From the NCBI GenBank assembly GCA_022562855.1, contig JADFON010000018.1, positions 1 through 13,265 on the forward strand: a stretch of 13,265 nucleotides of DNA, in the 5' to 3' direction. Each line of letters opens with the position of its first letter. Position 1 is the stretch's first letter. The position numbers and the translations under genes were made by a program. This stretch comes from Candidatus Zhuqueibacterota bacterium. Its GTDB lineage: Bacteria > SM23-31. Shown here one piece after another: positions 639-10,608 of this stretch. Under the pieces are notes generated by a model. That model searched no databases and had not been told where the DNA came from. It saw only the letters and a program-made list of their open reading frames with translations.

Positions 639-1310
639 TTAAATCCAGGAATACTTTCTAATTATATCGCCCGAAAGAGCATATATATGTATCATTTCAC
701 TTGGAACCCTTGTAATATCTTTATTTCCTGAAAGAATTCTAAGAGCATAAATATAATAATCGTCATTTTCTAATTTTGGGAAGGAAAAATGACCGTTTTC
801 ATCCACTATTGTTTTTAGCACTATTTTATTCTTTAATAATTCATAAATCACCCCATTGTATCCCGATTGTTCATCGATTAACTGTAGCCGCTTTTCACGG
901 TAAAGGTCCTCCGCTCTGTCTTTTTCTCCAATAACCTGATCGAGATAATTCTTATTTTCTATGTACAACCGATTGGAAGGGGCGATACCCCTGAAGCTGG
1001 CGTCAAATATCAACTCTTCTTCGCGGGCTATTGTTACTAATACTTCGATTTCATTCTTAAGGGAGTCAATTGATTCATCAAGAAGTGCAACATTTTTTTC
1101 GTAGTATACATTGAGGGAATCGAGAAAAGGACCAATTTGAGAGGAAACTACAAATACATAAAGGGTGTCTTCTAATAGTTCGGAAGGATCTTCAGATAAT
1201 TCAAAAACAATATCACCTTCCAGTGAGCCCCACATTGCAGCATAATAAACAATTGCATATACTAACATTGAAATAGTAAATGCAATAATTAATCCAATAA
1301 ATATCCGCAT
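639..1310 (-). CDS. Hypothetical membrane-anchored coiled-coil protein with C-terminal beta-sandwich-like domain
   Basis: I do not recognise a named family. The 223-residue product begins with one hydrophobic segment (about residues 4-26) preceded by a short basic start (MR), so it is probably a signal anchor with the rest in the periplasm. An acidic stretch follows (30-48), then heptad-like charged helices (about 62-98 and 115-146) suggesting coiled coil. The last part contains IVLKTIVDENGHFSFPKL (163-180), which resembles the beta-sandwich of carboxypeptidase regulatory-like or transthyretin-like domains; this resemblance is by eye only. The ATG at 1308-1310 shares its A with the TAA stop of the upstream PQQ-propeller gene (TAATG), so translation is probably coupled. 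No good Shine-Dalgarno is seen. The context suggests a role alongside the propeller lipoprotein and barrel protein, but the function is unknown. Confidence 0.85.
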   Translation of the reverse strand: MRIFIGLIIAFTISMLVYAIVYYAAMWGSLEGDIVFELSEDPSELLEDTLYVFVVSSQIGPFLDSLNVYYEKNVALLDESIDSLKNEIEVLVTIAREEELIFDASFRGIAPSNRLYIENKNYLDQVIGEKDRAEDLYREKRLQLIDEQSGYNGVIYELLKNKIVLKTIVDENGHFSFPKLENDDYYIYALRILSGNKDITRVPSEMIHIYALSGDIIRKYSWI

Positions 1311-2467
1311 TAGTTTTTGTTTTGTCCAAATACGTATAAAAATCTTGATTCGACCGGGAATATCAACTTCCCATCGTAATAAGCCGGGTTGCCAACAACA
1401 CGACCCTCAACCGGGAATTCCCAGATCTTTTTCCCGCTGACTGCGTCAAGACCATAAACCATTTTATTCAATGCGCCAAAATACACTGTGCTCCCGATCG
1501 TTATGCAGGATGTGTTAACGACTGTCTCTGTGTCGAACCGCCATCTTTCTTCACCTGTAATCTTATCGATCGAATAAATTTTACCGTCGTTACACCCGAA
1601 GGTGATACTCTCCTTGGTAACTGACGGAGTCGTGTAAATTGCTCCATTTGTATTAAACCGCCAAAGCTCGCTACCTGAACGCGCATCAAGAGCAAGTAAT
1701 GTGTTATCAAGCGTTCCCCAGAATATCCTGCTGCCATCGGAGGATGGAGTAGCGCGAAGGATCATACCTGAATTGTACTGCCAAACTTCTTCTCCGGTGG
1801 ATTTGTCAAGCGCTGATATTATCCCCTTAAGAGAACCGACAATAACAAGATCGTCCACTACAATTGTTCCGGACAGAATCTCGGAGTCCGCCTGGTATTC
1901 CCAGACAATATCCCCGGATTCTTTGTCAAGATTGTAAACCAAACCCGACCTGTTTGCTGCAAATAAGTTGTCGCCTGATACCGTCAAAGCGCTTTCAAAA
2001 ACCCCAAGATTCTTTCGCCAATTAAACCGCCCTCTCACCGCATCAAAAGAGTTGATCGTGAATCTGCCGTCTACTGCTGCAAAATAAAGGGTATGATTAT
2101 CATAGACAGGCGCGCTGATCATTTTGTATTTGATTTTAATCTTTCCAAGCAGTTTGCCTTTTGTCAGGTCGTACGCCTGAAGATATCCTTTTTGTGTGCA
2201 GCAAAATACTGTATTATCGCCTGTTACGATTGTTGAACCAACCATTGATAGAGGCTTTAGTCTGAATAACAATTCGGGATTCTCGATGTCATCCGCTTCA
2301 CGGGCAAAAGAATGAAAACCGTCACCTCCTATCTCAGTCCATTGAATGTCTGATTCTAATGGCGACACCCTGAAACCGCTGGCACATGCAAAAACAGCGA
2401 GTGAGACAAAAAGTAAAAACAGAAATAACTTTGCACAATTAGGTTGAGTTCGGATTTTTTTGTTCAT
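1310..2467 (-). CDS. PQQ-type beta-propeller lipoprotein (BamB-like)
   Basis: A predicted lipoprotein made almost wholly of PQQ-enzyme-type propeller repeats, the fold of BamB, which scaffolds outer-membrane protein assembly. I chose ATG 2465-2467 (385 residues): it starts MNKKIRT and runs straight into a hydrophobic signal segment ending VFAC, with Cys28 as the likely lipid-attachment site. The open frame extends ten codons further to a TTG at 2497, but that would put an odd acidic extension in front of the signal peptide. Blade signatures of the form LDxxSGxxxW occur at residues 141-150, 180-189, 220-229, 260-269, 300-309 and 340-349, with a weaker one near 100; the last five are exactly 40 residues apart. 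No catalytic or PQQ-cofactor residues are evident, so a binding or scaffold role is more likely than dehydrogenase activity. It lies just after the barrel protein and overlaps the next gene by one base. Identity as a functional BamB is inference. Confidence 0.88.
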   Translation of the reverse strand: MNKKIRTQPNCAKLFLFLLFVSLAVFACASGFRVSPLESDIQWTEIGGDGFHSFAREADDIENPELLFRLKPLSMVGSTIVTGDNTVFCCTQKGYLQAYDLTKGKLLGKIKIKYKMISAPVYDNHTLYFAAVDGRFTINSFDAVRGRFNWRKNLGVFESALTVSGDNLFAANRSGLVYNLDKESGDIVWEYQADSEILSGTIVVDDLVIVGSLKGIISALDKSTGEEVWQYNSGMILRATPSSDGSRIFWGTLDNTLLALDARSGSELWRFNTNGAIYTTPSVTKESITFGCNDGKIYSIDKITGEERWRFDTETVVNTSCITIGSTVYFGALNKMVYGLDAVSGKKIWEFPVEGRVVGNPAYYDGKLIFPVESRFLYVFGQNKN

Positions 2468-2553
2468 AAAAATAGAATTTTTAAATTCTTCTTTCAATTT
2501 TAAGGGGTTTTATTTATTCAACGTTAATAAGCGATTTCTTCTGAAATACTTTA

Positions 2554-5496
2554 TTAGAAATCCCATCCGAAAAAGAATTGTTTAAACGTTTTACCACTGA
2601 TAGAGGAGAAATTATTTTGAATTCGTTTCCCAATATCAAGCCGCAAAACCAACGCACCGGCTAAATTAAACCTGAACCCAATCCCTACACTTCCGAGTTT
2701 TCTGGGAAATTCCACTCCATCCAGTCTTGTAAATTCACTTCCGCTATCGTTTATCCTTGCCGCATCCAAAAAGAGGGCGCCCCTAATTGCTCCAAATCCC
2801 ATTCTACCGAACGGAAACCGAATGCCGAAATTATCAATAAAGGGAAACCGGTACTCCACAGAAAGAAAATTTATTTCCTGTCCCCAAATCTGCCATAACG
2901 GGTATCCCCGTAAATCCCAGCTTCCGCCAATATAGAAACGCTGTGCTTCCCTGCCTCTGTTTATATTGGTCATCAGTCTCACGGCAAGAGCGGTACTGTT
3001 TGAAAGACGAAAATATTTTCTCAAATCAATAATAAGTGTATTATAACTGACATTATTATAACTAATATCCTTCGTTTTTCCTAAGGTCACTATATAGCGC
3101 GCGCCGTCAAGGGGACCTGTAGGACCCCACATCGAATTGTCTTTTACATATGATAAGTAAGCACCCGTTAGAAGCGCTATTCTCTCCTGGTCGTCCAGAA
3201 GCTTGTCTCTTTCCGACCTTCCGAAATTTGTGCTGAAATCAAACCGCTCGAATAATGATATCGGATAACTCATTCCAAAAAAACCACCATAATACCGCTC
3301 ATTAAAAAAGAAATCCGCCTCATTAAACCGCCGCCCTGAAAAATGGAATATCCCGTAGTTATAGTTTATTCTTTTCTTTAATAAAGATCTCATCAAAGTG
3401 AAGTTAAAACTTCGAAATATATTTTCTTTTGTTTGAGAATTATTGTACAGCAAAAGAAAATACCTGTCATTTCCAAGTAAATCGCTGATGGCAAATCGCG
3501 CTCCTCCATTGGTGCCGAATAGCGGATCATTGGTTACCTGACCCTGGGCAATGTCTAAACTGTATTTCTTCTCATACACGCCCGCGTTTTGATCGTGGAC
3601 AATGTCTATTTCTCCCGGTTTCCAATCTGAATCGTCATTGGTTATCTCATCTGTTTCCAGAATTGGTTTTTCTTCAAATATATCTAAAGCATTTTCCAGG
3701 TAACGAAGTTGATAACTGTACCGTTCAAATGCTGTAAAAAACAATCCACCTTCCGGCGTAAACTCCGGATCAAATACACCGGTTGTAAAATTCGTGACCT
3801 GTTTTGTTTCTCCCGGTTCATAAAATATTGCGGCGTTTTGCAAATCTTCGCTGCCGATATCCTTGTTCTCGTCACCCAATCCCGACTCAAAAGAAATAGT
3901 AGTGGTTCTTCCTTTATTGCCGCTTGGAAGGACTTCATACATGTGCGTCATAAATACATTTGCAACGCCGTTCCTGTTCGAAGTATATGCTAAGTAATTT
4001 CCCTCGTAAGACCAAACAGGGGATCTGTCAACATGTAAACCATTCGTGATCTGGTATATTTCTCCCGTATCAAGCTCTTTGACGAATAAATTATAAGCGC
4101 CCTGCTCTCCATATGCGGTTCGAGAAGAAGAGAAAACCAGCGAGCCACCATCGGGAGACCAAACAGGATTTTTGTCATCGTAAAAATCATCTGTTTCCTG
4201 AGAGAGAAATCCGCTTTCAATATCCAGTGTATAGATATCCCGGTTACCGGCAATATTTAATCCGGCAAATGCGATAGCGCTCTTGTCAATAGACCAGGAG
4301 GGCGATGATATAGTTATGATTCCGGGAAATTTGAAATCATCGACCAGTTTATTCGCGTTTGTGTCGTATAAATAAAGAATATCGGTTTCTCCGCTTTTCG
4401 TTGAAAAGGCGAGGATTCCGTCCTCGTTTATGTCAATCTTACTGCTTAAAAAATGGATCACTTCGTATTGTTCGGTGCGCTCCCCCTTTATTACAATCTC
4501 AGGTTTTTGACCACCCGGTTTCAAGGATAGTTTTACAATATTTGTATATCCTGTCGTATTGGAGATATAATAAAGGAAATCGCCGTATTCCGTCCTATGG
4601 TAAGCGGGAGCTTCATTTAATCCGCGGTCGGTAACCTTTTCTGCAGCCATCCTTGGAAATTCATTATTTTCAAGAAGAGGGTAATACTGCTTCTTTAATG
4701 AGTAGACCCATTCATCATTCAGTTCGGCGTAACCTTTGCCAATAACAAGCTTAAAAACATCCTCAAATTTCTTTCCGCGTGTAATATTCTCCATAAACAT
4801 CAATATTTTTTCTTCGCCATAAGTTTTTTCAATATAGCGCAGAAAATTCTCACCCTCTTTATACATCAGATAGCTGCCCGCTATCGCACCAAAACTCGTA
4901 ATCGGGACGAGAGTTCCTTCCAGCACCTGGTCTACCAAAACCATTTCTGACTGGGTATCCCATTCTCCCGACCAAAGCTCTGCCAAGCCTTCGATAAACC
5001 ACAATGGCGGCTGTACCTGCCTCGTTTTCCCTTCGTTCTTCTGTACCCAATATATCTTACTATGCATAAAGACGTGAACAAGTTCGTGGTGTATTACCCG
5101 TTTGAACCTGAACGTTGAGCCGTCACTTGGAATAACGACTCTGCCTTTAAAGAACTCGAAGAAACCACCTATACCTTCCGGGAGAAAAGAAGCTGTTGTA
5201 TTTGTCTGCTGGAAAAAAAGATGGGCGCTGTAAAAAATAAGCGGTATTTTTTTGGTGATGGTATGACTGAATTTATTTTCAAGAATCTTGTAGCTTTCTT
5301 CTGCGTAAAAAGCGCCTTGCTCGGCTAACTTTTTCATTTCAGGATAATAATATATGTTAAAATGGTCTGTAGTAAGAACCATCCAGTCAAAATCGGTATA
5401 CTGGATTTTATTCCTTCCGTAATAAAATCTTTGTGAAAGAGCGTCATTTGAGGTGAATATTAAAACAAGGATAATTGAGAAAAAATATTTTTTCAT
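2554..5496 (-). CDS. Outer-membrane chimera: HExxH metallopeptidase domain, TolB-like propeller, Omp85/BamA-type barrel
   Basis: A 980-residue exported protein. Signal peptide: residues 1 to about 22 (MKKYFF..., cleavage probably after ALS). Residues about 25-270 look like a peptidase-MA/gluzincin domain with H137-E-L-V-H141 and, 28 residues on, FIEGLAELW, where E169 or E173 is the probable third zinc ligand. Residues about 290-600 carry TolB/PD40 repeats (SPSWSIDKSAIAFAG at 398-412, NPVWSPDGGSLVFSSSR at 443-459, SPVWSYEGNYLAYTSNRNG at 492-510, a weaker one at 576-590). Residues about 655-980 are a beta-barrel with the Omp85 loop-6 motif in GGSWDLRGYP (857-866) and a terminal aromatic beta-signal (FFFGWDF). 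No POTRA repeats are apparent; the propeller occupies their place before the barrel. The ATG at 5494-5496 has AAAGG about 11 bases upstream. Such proteins are known from FCB-group genomes as uncharacterised PD40 or BamA/TamA family proteins. Protease activity, substrate and barrel role are unproven. Confidence 0.9.
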   Translation of the reverse strand: MKKYFFSIILVLIFTSNDALSQRFYYGRNKIQYTDFDWMVLTTDHFNIYYYPEMKKLAEQGAFYAEESYKILENKFSHTITKKIPLIFYSAHLFFQQTNTTASFLPEGIGGFFEFFKGRVVIPSDGSTFRFKRVIHHELVHVFMHSKIYWVQKNEGKTRQVQPPLWFIEGLAELWSGEWDTQSEMVLVDQVLEGTLVPITSFGAIAGSYLMYKEGENFLRYIEKTYGEEKILMFMENITRGKKFEDVFKLVIGKGYAELNDEWVYSLKKQYYPLLENNEFPRMAAEKVTDRGLNEAPAYHRTEYGDFLYYISNTTGYTNIVKLSLKPGGQKPEIVIKGERTEQYEVIHFLSSKIDINEDGILAFSTKSGETDILYLYDTNANKLVDDFKFPGIITISSPSWSIDKSAIAFAGLNIAGNRDIYTLDIESGFLSQETDDFYDDKNPVWSPDGGSLVFSSSRTAYGEQGAYNLFVKELDTGEIYQITNGLHVDRSPVWSYEGNYLAYTSNRNGVANVFMTHMYEVLPSGNKGRTTTISFESGLGDENKDIGSEDLQNAAIFYEPGETKQVTNFTTGVFDPEFTPEGGLFFTAFERYSYQLRYLENALDIFEEKPILETDEITNDDSDWKPGEIDIVHDQNAGVYEKKYSLDIAQGQVTNDPLFGTNGGARFAISDLLGNDRYFLLLYNNSQTKENIFRSFNFTLMRSLLKKRINYNYGIFHFSGRRFNEADFFFNERYYGGFFGMSYPISLFERFDFSTNFGRSERDKLLDDQERIALLTGAYLSYVKDNSMWGPTGPLDGARYIVTLGKTKDISYNNVSYNTLIIDLRKYFRLSNSTALAVRLMTNINRGREAQRFYIGGSWDLRGYPLWQIWGQEINFLSVEYRFPFIDNFGIRFPFGRMGFGAIRGALFLDAARINDSGSEFTRLDGVEFPRKLGSVGIGFRFNLAGALVLRLDIGKRIQNNFSSISGKTFKQFFFGWDF

Positions 5497-7750: not shown

Positions 7751-8617
7751 TTATGAACTGCCGTCGACTGAGTTTCTTTGAAAAAGTGAAATCCCGGTTA
7801 GCGATTGAACCAAATCCTCAATTGTATAAATCTCATTGAGCGGAATATTATATCTCCTGGAAATGGACTCGCAAAGCACAGTTATTTCAGGCTTCTCAAC
7901 ATGACCACCGTATCTGTCATCGCCGTTAACAAACATATTCTTTTTTAATCCGTCGTACTGTATCTTCCCCTCGCCAATAACAATTATTCTTTCGCATATC
8001 CGGAACAGAAAATCTATGTTATGAGAAACCACGCAGACCGTTTTCCCCTTTTGATTGATCCCTTTTAGTAATTTTTCAATATCGTCTATCCCCCTTTTGT
8101 CCAATCCGATAGTAGGCTCATCGAGGAACAAAAAATCCGGGTCGTGAACAGTCACGCCCGCCAAAGCGACCTTTCTTCTTTCACCGCTGCTTAGCTGGAA
8201 AGGAGACCGTCCGGCAAATTCTTCGGGAGGTAGTCCCACATTTTCAAGCGCTTCACTTACTATTCTCTCTAAGTCTTCACCATTATCACTACGTTGTTTC
8301 ATTCCGAATGCAATGTCGGCATAGACTGTTTCTTCAAATAACTGCTTCTCGGGAAATTGAAAAACGAGACCAATGCACTTTCTGAATTTGCTCCAATTTT
8401 TAGCATTATTTAGAACCGAATCGTTTATAATCACCGTCCCGGACAGGGGAGCCAAAAACCCTGTACATAATTGCAAAAAGGTGGATTTCCCCGAACCTGT
8501 TTTGCCGGTTATCCCAATCAACTCACCTTGTTCTATTGTGCAGGATATACTCTCGAATACTTTTACTATCGAATCAGTTTCATAATTAAAACAAATGTTT
8601 TCGAGCACAATTTTCAT
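7751..8617 (-). CDS. ecfA2: ECF/cobalt-type ABC transporter ATPase, EcfA2-like
   Basis: Energy-coupling ATPase of an energy-coupling-factor or cobalt/nickel importer (CbiO family), acting at the inner membrane. The 288-residue product has Walker A GKTGSGKST (38-46), Q-loop VFQFPEKQLFEETVYADIAFG (Gln87; FPEKQLF is typical of EcfA2), signature LSSGE (142-146), Walker B FLFLDE (162-167) and an intact switch His199 (SHN). The C-terminal tail (about 225-288) matches the extra domain of these ATPases. The ATG at 8615-8617 is 7 bases after the stop of the partner ATPase gene, so the two are surely co-transcribed and probably form a heterodimer. No EcfT follows; the next gene is pilU, 112 bases on. 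Nickel transport is suggested only by adjacency to larC. Confidence 0.92.
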   Translation of the reverse strand: MKIVLENICFNYETDSIVKVFESISCTIEQGELIGITGKTGSGKSTFLQLCTGFLAPLSGTVIINDSVLNNAKNWSKFRKCIGLVFQFPEKQLFEETVYADIAFGMKQRSDNGEDLERIVSEALENVGLPPEEFAGRSPFQLSSGERRKVALAGVTVHDPDFLFLDEPTIGLDKRGIDDIEKLLKGINQKGKTVCVVSHNIDFLFRICERIIVIGEGKIQYDGLKKNMFVNGDDRYGGHVEKPEITVLCESISRRYNIPLNEIYTIEDLVQSLTGISLFQRNSVDGSS

Positions 8618-8624
8618 AAAAAAA

Positions 8625-9449
8625 TTATTGACTGGAAATAGCTGATGAAAAATCGAAAATGTCAGGTTCTATTTCTATCCCCGGAACAGAATTCTTTAAT
8701 CTATATTCGACAGGTATTTCTAATCCGATTTGCCTGAGCAGGGGTTGCTTTTCCGAAAAAATCTTCTCAGGTGTATCGTCTGCTGCAACTTTTCCATCAT
8801 TCAAAACAATTACACGGTCACACTTTATTGCTTCACGGGAAAATTGAGTTATCAACAGTATAGTAAAACCGGTCTCATATTGTGTGCTGAATTCCTTTCT
8901 CAATTGGTTGAATAAAAATCTTCTTTCATTTAGGTCGAGGAACGATGTCGGTTCATCGAGTATCAGGTATTGGGGATTTGCGACCATTATAGAAGCCACA
9001 GCAAGTTTTTGCTTTTGACCACCGGAAAGCCGGTTTGGAGATCTCTCTTTTAAACTATCCAAATTGAACCGCATTAATATCTCCCGCACTTTTTCTCTCA
9101 TTTCGATTTCCGGTGTTCCTTTGTATTCTAATGCAAAGGCAATTTCACGTTCAACAAAATTCGTAATCAACTGGTCGTCCGGGTTTTGAAACACTATTCC
9201 TATAATATCCCTTATTTTGCCGGAACTTATCAATTCTTCGCTATTTTCGCCGTTTATCGTAATTGTCCCGGACGTTGGGGATATCAAACCCGCAAGACAC
9301 CTTGCAAGCGTCGATTTACCCGATCCATTCGGACCTATTACTGCTGTAAATTCATTCAAGCTGAATTCAACAGAAACCTCATTAAGAGCTCTCTTTATGA
9401 CGTGCCGTTCATCCGAATAATCTACAATAACATTGCAGCATTTAATCAT
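8625..9449 (-). CDS. ecfA1: ECF/cobalt-type ABC transporter ATPase, EcfA1-like, with altered H-loop
   Basis: Partner ATPase of the EcfA2-like protein. I chose ATG 9447-9449 (274 residues, MIKCCNVIVDY); a TTG at 9461 would add only four residues and lengthen the overlap with larC. With the ATG, start and larC stop overlap as ATGATTAA, implying translational coupling. Motifs, numbered from this ATG: Walker A GPNGSGKST (39-47), Q-loop VFQNPDDQLITNFVEREIAF (Gln88), signature LSGGQ (141-145), Walker B YLILDE (161-166). The H-loop reads LLITQFSREA: the switch residue is Gln202 instead of the usual His (codon CAA on the minus strand), while the partner keeps its His. One of the two ATP sites may therefore be weak or regulatory. 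Membrane and substrate-binding subunits are not nearby. Confidence 0.92.
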   Translation of the reverse strand: MIKCCNVIVDYSDERHVIKRALNEVSVEFSLNEFTAVIGPNGSGKSTLARCLAGLISPTSGTITINGENSEELISSGKIRDIIGIVFQNPDDQLITNFVEREIAFALEYKGTPEIEMREKVREILMRFNLDSLKERSPNRLSGGQKQKLAVASIMVANPQYLILDEPTSFLDLNERRFLFNQLRKEFSTQYETGFTILLITQFSREAIKCDRVIVLNDGKVAADDTPEKIFSEKQPLLRQIGLEIPVEYRLKNSVPGIEIEPDIFDFSSAISSQ

Positions 9450-10608
9450 CAGGATTACCAAGAATTTTTATTTTATCATATATTTCCATAAGGGGGATAT
9501 TTTCTTTATCCGCGATTTTTTTGCATTCCTCAAATTCGGGAATAATTCGCTTTTTACCATTCAGCATCACGGCTTTTACTTTTACGCTTCCCCATGGGGT
9601 GTCGAGCGATTCAGATGTCCGTTTTAATTTATGTCTGAACGTTTCGTGCATTCTTACACCAAGCGTTGCAGATTCATGAAAAAGAACGTCCAGGCATTTG
9701 TCATGATTTTCTTTTGCCGTCAGAATCGTCAGATTATGACCCGGTCTTCCTTTTTTCATGATAATAGGAGTGATATACGCATCCACAGCGCCAGCCTCAA
9801 TTATTTTATCAACAAGGTAGGGATATAACTCACCTGTAACGTCATCAATATTTGTTTCAAGCACCATCATAACGTCCTGATCGACATGCTCAATCGGTTG
9901 ACCCATGATAATCCGTAATACATTCGCAAAATCATCTAAATCCCTGTCGCCGCAGCCGTATCCGGTATTTTCGATTCTTACCGGCAGTAATTTTTCCGAG
10001 AACTCCGCAACAGTTGTTATCAGTGCAGCGCCGGTTGGCGTGGCCAACTCAAAGCCCACTTCTTTCTTTATAACCGGAAATCCCTTGACAAGCTCAAGGG
10101 TTGCCGGAGAAGGAACGGAAATTGTCCCGTGCGCACATTCTACTGAACCCGAACCAAGGCTGATTGCTGAAGAGAAGCATTCGGTTATCCCCAATTGTTC
10201 CATACCCCAGATTGAACCGACAATATCAATTATCGAGTCCATAGCCCCTACTTCATGGAAATGAATTTCTTCCATAGGCTTTTGATGAATTTTCCCTTCC
10301 GCTTCGGCAATTCTTGTAAATATTTTGCCGGTTTTTTCCTTAACATCATCCGACAACTCAGGTGAATCCAAAATTCTCAAAATATCGGGTAGTTTCCTGT
10401 GATGATGTTCTTCATCCGTTTTAACGGATACCTTTACCCCGCGAATACCTTTTCTGCTTACAACTTCACTCGAGAGGGAAAAGGAGGATATTCCAAGAGA
10501 TCTCAGTTTGGATTCAAGTTCATCTTCGTTTAATCCGAGATCGATTAACGCACCGAGTACCATATCGCCGCTGATCCCGGCAAAACAATCAAAATATGCT
10601 ATGCTCAT
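9442..10608 (-). CDS. larC: Nickel insertion protein LarC (pyridinium-3,5-bisthiocarboxylate mononucleotide nickel chelatase)
   Basis: LarC inserts nickel into the pyridinium bisthiocarboxylate mononucleotide to form the nickel-pincer cofactor of LarA-type racemases and epimerases, in a CTP-dependent cytoplasmic reaction. The 388-residue product is full-length and in one frame, unlike the frameshifted larC1/larC2 of Lactiplantibacillus. Signatures: DCFAGISGDM (7-16), a His cluster HHH (68-70) followed by KLPDI, IHFHEVGAMDSIIDIVG (115-131), HGTISVPSPAT (160-170), ATPTGAAL (189-196), NIDDVTGE (253-260) and KKGRPG (285-290). The ATG at 10606-10608 has a short upstream GGA. It is the first gene after the terminator at 10658-10683 and overlaps the ECF ATPase gene downstream. 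LarA, LarB and LarE are not in the window, so the client enzyme lies elsewhere. Confidence 0.95.
   Translation of the reverse strand: MSIAYFDCFAGISGDMVLGALIDLGLNEDELESKLRSLGISSFSLSSEVVSRKGIRGVKVSVKTDEEHHHRKLPDILRILDSPELSDDVKEKTGKIFTRIAEAEGKIHQKPMEEIHFHEVGAMDSIIDIVGSIWGMEQLGITECFSSAISLGSGSVECAHGTISVPSPATLELVKGFPVIKKEVGFELATPTGAALITTVAEFSEKLLPVRIENTGYGCGDRDLDDFANVLRIIMGQPIEHVDQDVMMVLETNIDDVTGELYPYLVDKIIEAGAVDAYITPIIMKKGRPGHNLTILTAKENHDKCLDVLFHESATLGVRMHETFRHKLKRTSESLDTPWGSVKVKAVMLNGKKRIIPEFEECKKIADKENIPLMEIYDKIKILGNPDD

Follow-up and report, generated by a model that had tools for sequence, protein, structure and literature searches.

Gene organization of the locus

The window, which is the whole stretch of 13,265 nucleotides analyzed here, belongs to a 2.5-Mb draft genome (~80% estimated completeness) of a Candidatus Zhuqueibacterota bacterium and lies on its contig C392. 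The reverse strand carries a gene for a fusion of a peptidase, a propeller, and an Omp85-type barrel, followed directly by the gene for a BamB-like propeller protein and by a third, smaller gene (Table 1). The gene coaE is found upstream of the fusion gene in the window and in the genomes G004 and G001, and the upstream genes in relatives include PtsI, HPr, bact-PGI_C, and polyprenyl synthetase, which are housekeeping genes and depend on the lineage. The window also contains an adjacent pair of ABC ATPase genes (7751-9461) resembling an energy-coupling-factor (EcfA-type) pair, a LarC-like nickel-insertion gene adjoining this pair (9442-10608), and an NAD-dependent epimerase/dehydratase gene cut by the contig end (1-603). 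Rfam gave no RNA family within the window, PHROGs gave no match, and promoter and terminator scans were at or near chance level.

Table 1. Features of the fusion gene and of the two genes downstream of it (positions in the window; residues of the encoded protein).
Feature	Positions	Strand	Evidence
Peptidase-propeller-Omp85 fusion protein, 980 aa (stop codon included in positions)	2554..5496	-	ORF list, profile matches, model
Probable signal peptide, residues 1-22	5431..5496	-	Hydrophobic N-terminus; model helix 5-15; weak sequence conservation
Gluzincin (Peptidase_MA_2) domain, residues 23-276	4669..5430	-	Pfam; 48/50 relatives; best-conserved domain
HELVH zinc-binding motif, residues 137-141	5074..5088	-	H137, E138, H141 invariant in 50 members
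WFIEGLAE, residues 166-173, with E169 as the expected third zinc ligand	4978..5001	-	E169 invariant
Y212, candidate catalytic tyrosine	4861..4863	-	Invariant; aligned with the Tyr of a PDB collagenase
Six-bladed TolB-like propeller (PD40 repeats), residues 282-606	3679..4653	-	PD40; TolB structures; profile against TolB
Omp85-type 16-strand barrel, residues 645-980	2557..3564	-	PF01103; 16 model strands; BamA barrels
LRGY motif of loop 6, residues 862-865	2902..2913	-	R863 invariant in 50 members
BamB-like propeller protein, 395 aa, lipobox VFAC; conserved downstream partner	1310..2497	-	PQQ_2; BamB equivalog; operon conservation
Third operon gene: N-terminal TM helix, central charged region, possible beta-sandwich C-terminus	639..1310	-	Position in relatives; hydropathy

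Domain architecture of the fusion protein

As established computationally, the fusion protein consists, from the N- to the C-terminus, of a probable signal peptide, a gluzincin peptidase, a TolB-like propeller, and an Omp85 barrel whose strands span residues 645-978. The families matched in Pfam by 50 full-length relatives, which are 31-49% identical to the window protein, include PD40 (50/50), Peptidase_MA_2 (48/50), and Omp85 (28/50), with POTRA absent among them. The mean pairwise identity within these 50 members is 51% for the peptidase, 45% for the barrel, and 36% for the propeller. An AlphaFold2 model built on the alignment of 50 sequences had a mean pLDDT of 85.2 and a pTM of 0.85 (73 and 0.73 in an earlier model from nine sequences), the overall pTM being the sole measure behind the predicted arrangement of the domains relative to each other. 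The model has no unassigned folded region ahead of the barrel that could be a POTRA domain.

The propeller has a PD40 score of 38.7 bits and six blades in the model. It matches TolB structures with Z 26.5-27.8 (rmsd 2.4 over 247 residues at Z 26.5), and its profile matches TolB with E 2.5e-22; the score for the TolB equivalog TIGR02800, in turn, is 77.9 bits vs. a cut-off of 343.15. Between propeller blades 1 and 2 there is a strongly conserved loop, GERT..(F/Y)E..H (residues 338-348, about 4453-4485 on the reverse strand), in which E345 is invariant and H348 is present in 94%; purely speculatively, and by analogy, this loop might be a regulatory plug like His246 of BepA.

The barrel has 16 long strands in the model, from residue 645 to 978, and matches BamA barrels with Z of about 22-23, including those of E. 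coli (Z 22.2) and Deinococcus (Z 22.7, rmsd 4.1, 306 residues). In the genome search, PF01103 (Omp85) scored 34.1 bits vs. a cut-off of 24, while hmmscan did not list this family for the window protein, either whole or with the barrel alone. Because the genome search put Omp85 above the cut-off, the hmmscan result is probably an effect of sensitivity, likely of the speed filters. Loop-6 RGF/RGY and FxD strand motifs are markers of the Omp85 superfamily, and both are present in the fusion protein (R863-G864-Y865 and F909-x-D911), with R863 and D911 invariant in the 50 members. The protein thus has the 16-strand C-terminal barrel of the superfamily and lacks the POTRA domain, of which at least one is needed in one definition (PMC11116518); the 2014 survey defines the superfamily by the barrel (PMC4104836).

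These results bear out the first-pass annotation, which had read from the open reading frame a protease, TolB-type PD40 repeats, and a barrel with the loop-6 LRGY motif on one chain without visible POTRA domains. The profile comparison and the full-chain structure prediction that it proposed agree with this reading, with Peptidase_MA_2 and PF01103 above their cut-offs, PD40 at the score given above, and no POTRA fold in the model.

Peptidase domain and catalytic site

In the first-pass annotation, a credible gluzincin site had been read from HELVH (residues 137-141) and a downstream EGLAE, and both motifs are confirmed, EGLAE at residues 169-173. Peptidase_MA_2 matched residues 132-267 with 40.1 bits vs. 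a cut-off of 32.4, and Pfam and the motif alignment both place in the protein the HExxH motif and the downstream glutamate ligand of the gluzincins. The residues H137, E138, H141, E169, and Y212 are all invariant in the 50 relatives, a conservation established by computation, and the spacing of 32 between H137 and E169 is the usual one. In the model, HELVH is predicted on a helix formed by residues 128-154 and E169 on a helix formed by residues 165-176. The fold was assigned from Pfam, the motif, this helix placement, and a weak profile match to a collagenase, the structural matches in the PDB having covered the propeller and the barrel.

In that weak match of the peptidase domain to a PDB collagenase chain (E 0.017), Y212 is aligned with a tyrosine located 44 residues past the glutamate of WWSEG, and the distance from E169 to Y212 in the fusion protein is 43. 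The same spacing of 44 separates Glu520 and Tyr564 of the Grimontia collagenase, in which an alanine variant of Tyr564 lost peptide hydrolysis (PMC9304777). Tyr599 of ColG was also considered as the counterpart of the candidate catalytic tyrosine and was dropped, Tyr564 of Grimontia being the supported one.

Among 145 sampled genomes, nearly all of the ~70 matches to the protease domain lie inside open frames of 870-1530 aa, and therefore this domain hardly occurs apart from the fusion. The constraint on the peptidase domain, as judged from its conservation, makes it unlikely that this domain is a relic. It is also quite improbable that the protease fold serves as a docking domain only, making the protein a non-cutting assembly factor; peptidase folds can be re-used for binding, but the five residues named above are invariant, and the HExxH motif and the WxxEG glutamate are retained even in the distant paralogs L149-L151.

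Distribution and paralogs

A tblastn search of genome contigs with the fusion protein confirmed at least 395 relatives. The best 80 of these come from Ignavibacteria, other Bacteroidota including Rhodothermales, Calditrichota, KSB1, Neomarinimicrobiota, and Zixibacteria, with further sources in Gemmatimonadota, Eisenbacteria, Glassbacteria, and Fermentibacteria. These are lineages of the FCB group, in whose genomes the first-pass annotation had placed the architecture. Chance is excluded as an explanation, because at least 395 relatives were confirmed and the catalytic residues are invariant.

Genomes often have one to three copies of the fusion gene, from different subfamilies. The window's own genome has a second fusion paralog cut by a contig end (G000:C420:2-328). 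The divergent paralogs L149:5408-8404, L150:5019-7967, and L151:5237-8272 share the N-terminal peptidase and the propeller and end in a barrel-like C-terminus, with a HEFTH/HEFAH motif, the WxxEG glutamate at a longer spacing, and no BamB-like neighbor. In the nearest relative (L145:7976-10836, on contig C43 of G001), the fusion gene is broken into two frames near the propeller-barrel linker; the break may be real or may come from a frameshift in the assembly.

The window's genome also encodes another, separate Omp85 protein (G000:C112), in which POTRA was matched three times. The fusion protein is therefore an added module and not the BamA of the organism, and the array of POTRA domains that precedes the barrel of BamA is missing from it.

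Operon and gene neighborhood

The neighborhood was sampled by clustering all ORFs that neighbor the fusion gene in the window and in 80 loci. The BamB-like family occurs in 57 of the clustered loci, 55 times at +1 and in the orientation of the fusion gene, and 47 of the 57 neighbors have a lipobox by a simple rule. The predicted start of the BamB-like gene overlaps the fusion gene by an equal number of bases (offset -13) in 22/57, and this constant overlap therefore suggests that the two genes are translationally coupled. The operon was counted over a supported clade of 70 entries, taken from a FastTree tree of 105 proteins: the BamB-like neighbor is present in 58 and absent in six, and a contig end precludes judging in the other six (58/64 assessable). 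Its occurrence in the clade spans at least seven lineages (Ignavibacteria, Rhodothermales, Calditrichota, KSB1, Neomarinimicrobiota, Zixibacteria, and Gemmatimonadota). The distant paralogous subfamilies have no BamB-like neighbor where this could be assessed, except for two Eisenbacteria, and therefore the protease-barrel unit can exist without this neighbor.

The protein encoded at 1310-2497 has a propeller and a lipobox, and the pairing of its gene with the Omp85 fusion is strong. It matched PQQ_2 with 157 bits, and its score for the BamB equivalog TIGR03300 was 205.3 bits vs. a cut-off of 285.2. In an independent genome-wide search of seven genomes, five had the neighbor of the fusion as their best BamB-like match, a 5-Mb genome on a single contig being one of the five, and in the window's genome TIGR03300 matched this neighbor only.

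The BamB-like gene and the third gene overlap at stop and start (TAATG), and homologs of the third gene are found in the corresponding place in three relatives from the window's class. In most lineages the third gene belongs to a PEGA-domain family (PF08308; 29 loci by BLAST clustering), and in the window's class it encodes an unrelated protein with a single TM helix. Gene order, as computed here, indicates that the fusion gene heads a conserved operon, in which it is followed by the BamB-like gene and then usually by a small third gene. The survey of conserved neighbors proposed in the first-pass annotation thus found the BamB-like gene directly downstream in the great majority of assessable clade members, and the notion of a "self-contained" machine is probably wrong, since the operon adds this protein and, in most cases, another envelope protein.

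The third gene is also relevant to the reading in which the protein is a regulatory protease, with the barrel and propeller sensing the state of the envelope and the protease cleaving a signaling or lipid-associated protein, for example the third operon protein. Its product in the window's class is anchored in the membrane, the gene being coupled to that of the BamB-like protein, and PlpD suggests that Omp85 scaffolds can be re-used for homeostasis; however, depending on the lineage the third gene is of the PEGA family, codes for the unrelated TM protein, or is absent, in contrast to the constant protease, and this reading is very improbable.

A PorZ-like family (type IX secretion system) was found four to seven genes downstream of the fusion in nine loci titled Ignavibacteria or Bacteroidetes (L038, L039, L041, L049, L051, L053, L056, L057, and L078).

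A further reading is substrate-specific maturation or export, in which the barrel would export or insert one class of proteins (e.g., surface proteins or lipoproteins) and the protease would remove a pro-segment in transit. The TpsB two-partner relatives of Omp85, described in the 2014 survey as single-substrate exporters (PMC4104836), are consistent with this, as are the paralogous subfamilies, whose one to three copies per genome would fit specialized clients, and the PorZ-like gene. However, no candidate client gene recurs beside the 80 loci and the window other than the propeller and third-gene partners, the PorZ linkage is restricted to the two groups of loci named above, and the fold of the barrel is nearer to BamA than to a transporter, which leaves this reading unlikely.

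Comparison with known systems

A WD40-Omp85 subfamily, with an N-terminal TolB-like propeller and a barrel without POTRA, was named by Heinz and Lithgow in 2014, who likened it to a BamA-BamB fusion (PMC4104836). The fusion protein shares with it the propeller N-terminal to a POTRA-less barrel, a likeness drawn from the description in that survey, whose text contains no peptidase, operon, or functional test for WD40-Omp85. Within the open-access literature, only this survey was relevant to WD40-Omp85 or to a PEGA/BamB operon, no characterized function or experiment was found for any member of the fusion family, and a 2025 paper on the Flavobacterium BAM had no mention of BamB, a propeller, or a BAM-linked peptidase. 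The statement of the first-pass annotation that the architecture has no described function is supported as far as this literature extends; the propeller-Omp85 combination itself had already been named in 2014.

The fusion protein resembles BamA in the 16-strand Omp85 barrel, the RGY-type motif of loop 6, and the link to a BamB-like lipoprotein, and differs from it in having a peptidase and a propeller in place of POTRA and in coexisting with a POTRA-bearing Omp85. As is proposed for the fusion protein, BepA is a periplasmic zinc metallopeptidase handling outer-membrane barrel proteins at an Omp85 protein; at BamA, it acts on substrates either by aiding their assembly or, for LptD that has stalled, by degradation (PMC8423444; PMC7950410). 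However, BepA is a separate protein of the M48 family with a TPR domain and a spacing of 65 between H136 and E201 (PMC7950410), vs. 32 in the fusion protein, in which Peptidase_M48 had no Pfam match at E<=1.

PlpD, a patatin-like Omp85 protein (former type Vd), also has an enzyme domain N-terminal to the barrel, but this is a lipase and not a protease, and PlpD contains a POTRA domain and lacks a propeller; a patatin-like domain had no match in the window protein at E<=1. The order of signal peptide, enzyme, and C-terminal Omp85 barrel could, according to the former type Vd idea, belong to a surface protease whose barrel carries its own peptidase and propeller to the exterior like an autotransporter, and the weak resemblance of the peptidase profile to secreted bacterial collagenases (E 0.017) would agree with it. 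This is nevertheless improbable, since PlpD, the model of the idea, keeps in the periplasm the enzyme that was earlier thought to be secreted (PMC11116518), the BamB-like lipoprotein of the operon is a periplasmic type of partner, and a folded six-bladed propeller would be a poor passenger.

The M9 collagenases/Peptidase_MA_2 share with the fusion protein the HExxH motif, the WxxEGxAE glutamate, and a conserved tyrosine about 44 residues further on; the sequence similarity is weak, and the matched chains are not outer-membrane barrels. The six-bladed PD40 propeller is shared with TolB, from which the fusion differs in falling below the equivalog score. The family PF00149, named Metallophos in Pfam, is a phosphoesterase family, with no match in the window protein at E<=1 and none in the list for the 50 members. 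This family defines the "Omp85-metalloprotease" subfamily of Heinz and Lithgow, and therefore that subfamily is not the fusion family; the likeness is in name only, and the name appears to be a mistake.

Proposed function and implications

The propeller and the peptidase are located where POTRA domains would be and are most likely periplasmic, by analogy with PlpD, the best-studied fusion of an enzyme with Omp85, whose enzyme is periplasmic. Here it is proposed, with a probability of about 0.4, that the fusion protein forms the core, at the outer membrane, of a machine dedicated to assembly and quality control (or processing), for which we infer the orientation in the periplasm, the proteolytic activity, the formation of a complex, and the nature of the clients. 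The C-terminal barrel would sit in the outer membrane, with the propeller and the zinc protease hanging beneath it in the periplasm and replacing the POTRA domains, and the BamB-like propeller lipoprotein and the small third protein of the same operon would make up the rest of the complex. The clients, outer-membrane or exported proteins, would engage the seam of the barrel and the propeller, and the protease would cut stalled clients or trim those needing maturation, so that one locus may do the jobs of the separate BamA, BamB, and BepA in E. coli. This proposal keeps the processing of the "processing or secretion machine" suggested in the first-pass annotation, secretion being one of several readings and the enzyme of PlpD being periplasmic (PMC11116518). 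In a wider and more tentative form, the family may be a POTRA-free second outer-membrane assembly machine, found across the FCB group beside a POTRA-bearing Omp85, which with its built-in protease and its own BamB-like lipoprotein would insert or mature outer-membrane proteins and destroy failures at the site of insertion.

As far as the open-access literature shows, the fusion family is a real, widespread, and uncharacterized variant of Omp85, and its complete peptidase and BamB-like operon are additions to the published picture. The usual picture of an Omp85 protein is a barrel fed by POTRA domains, and a widespread branch in which these are swapped for a protease and a propeller, with a BamB-like protein of its own, raises the question of what POTRA domains are needed for. 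The locus is a compact system for studying the coupling of outer-membrane insertion and proteolytic quality control and, if the proposal is true, it would be an unnoticed part of the envelope biology of several large, mostly uncultured phyla.
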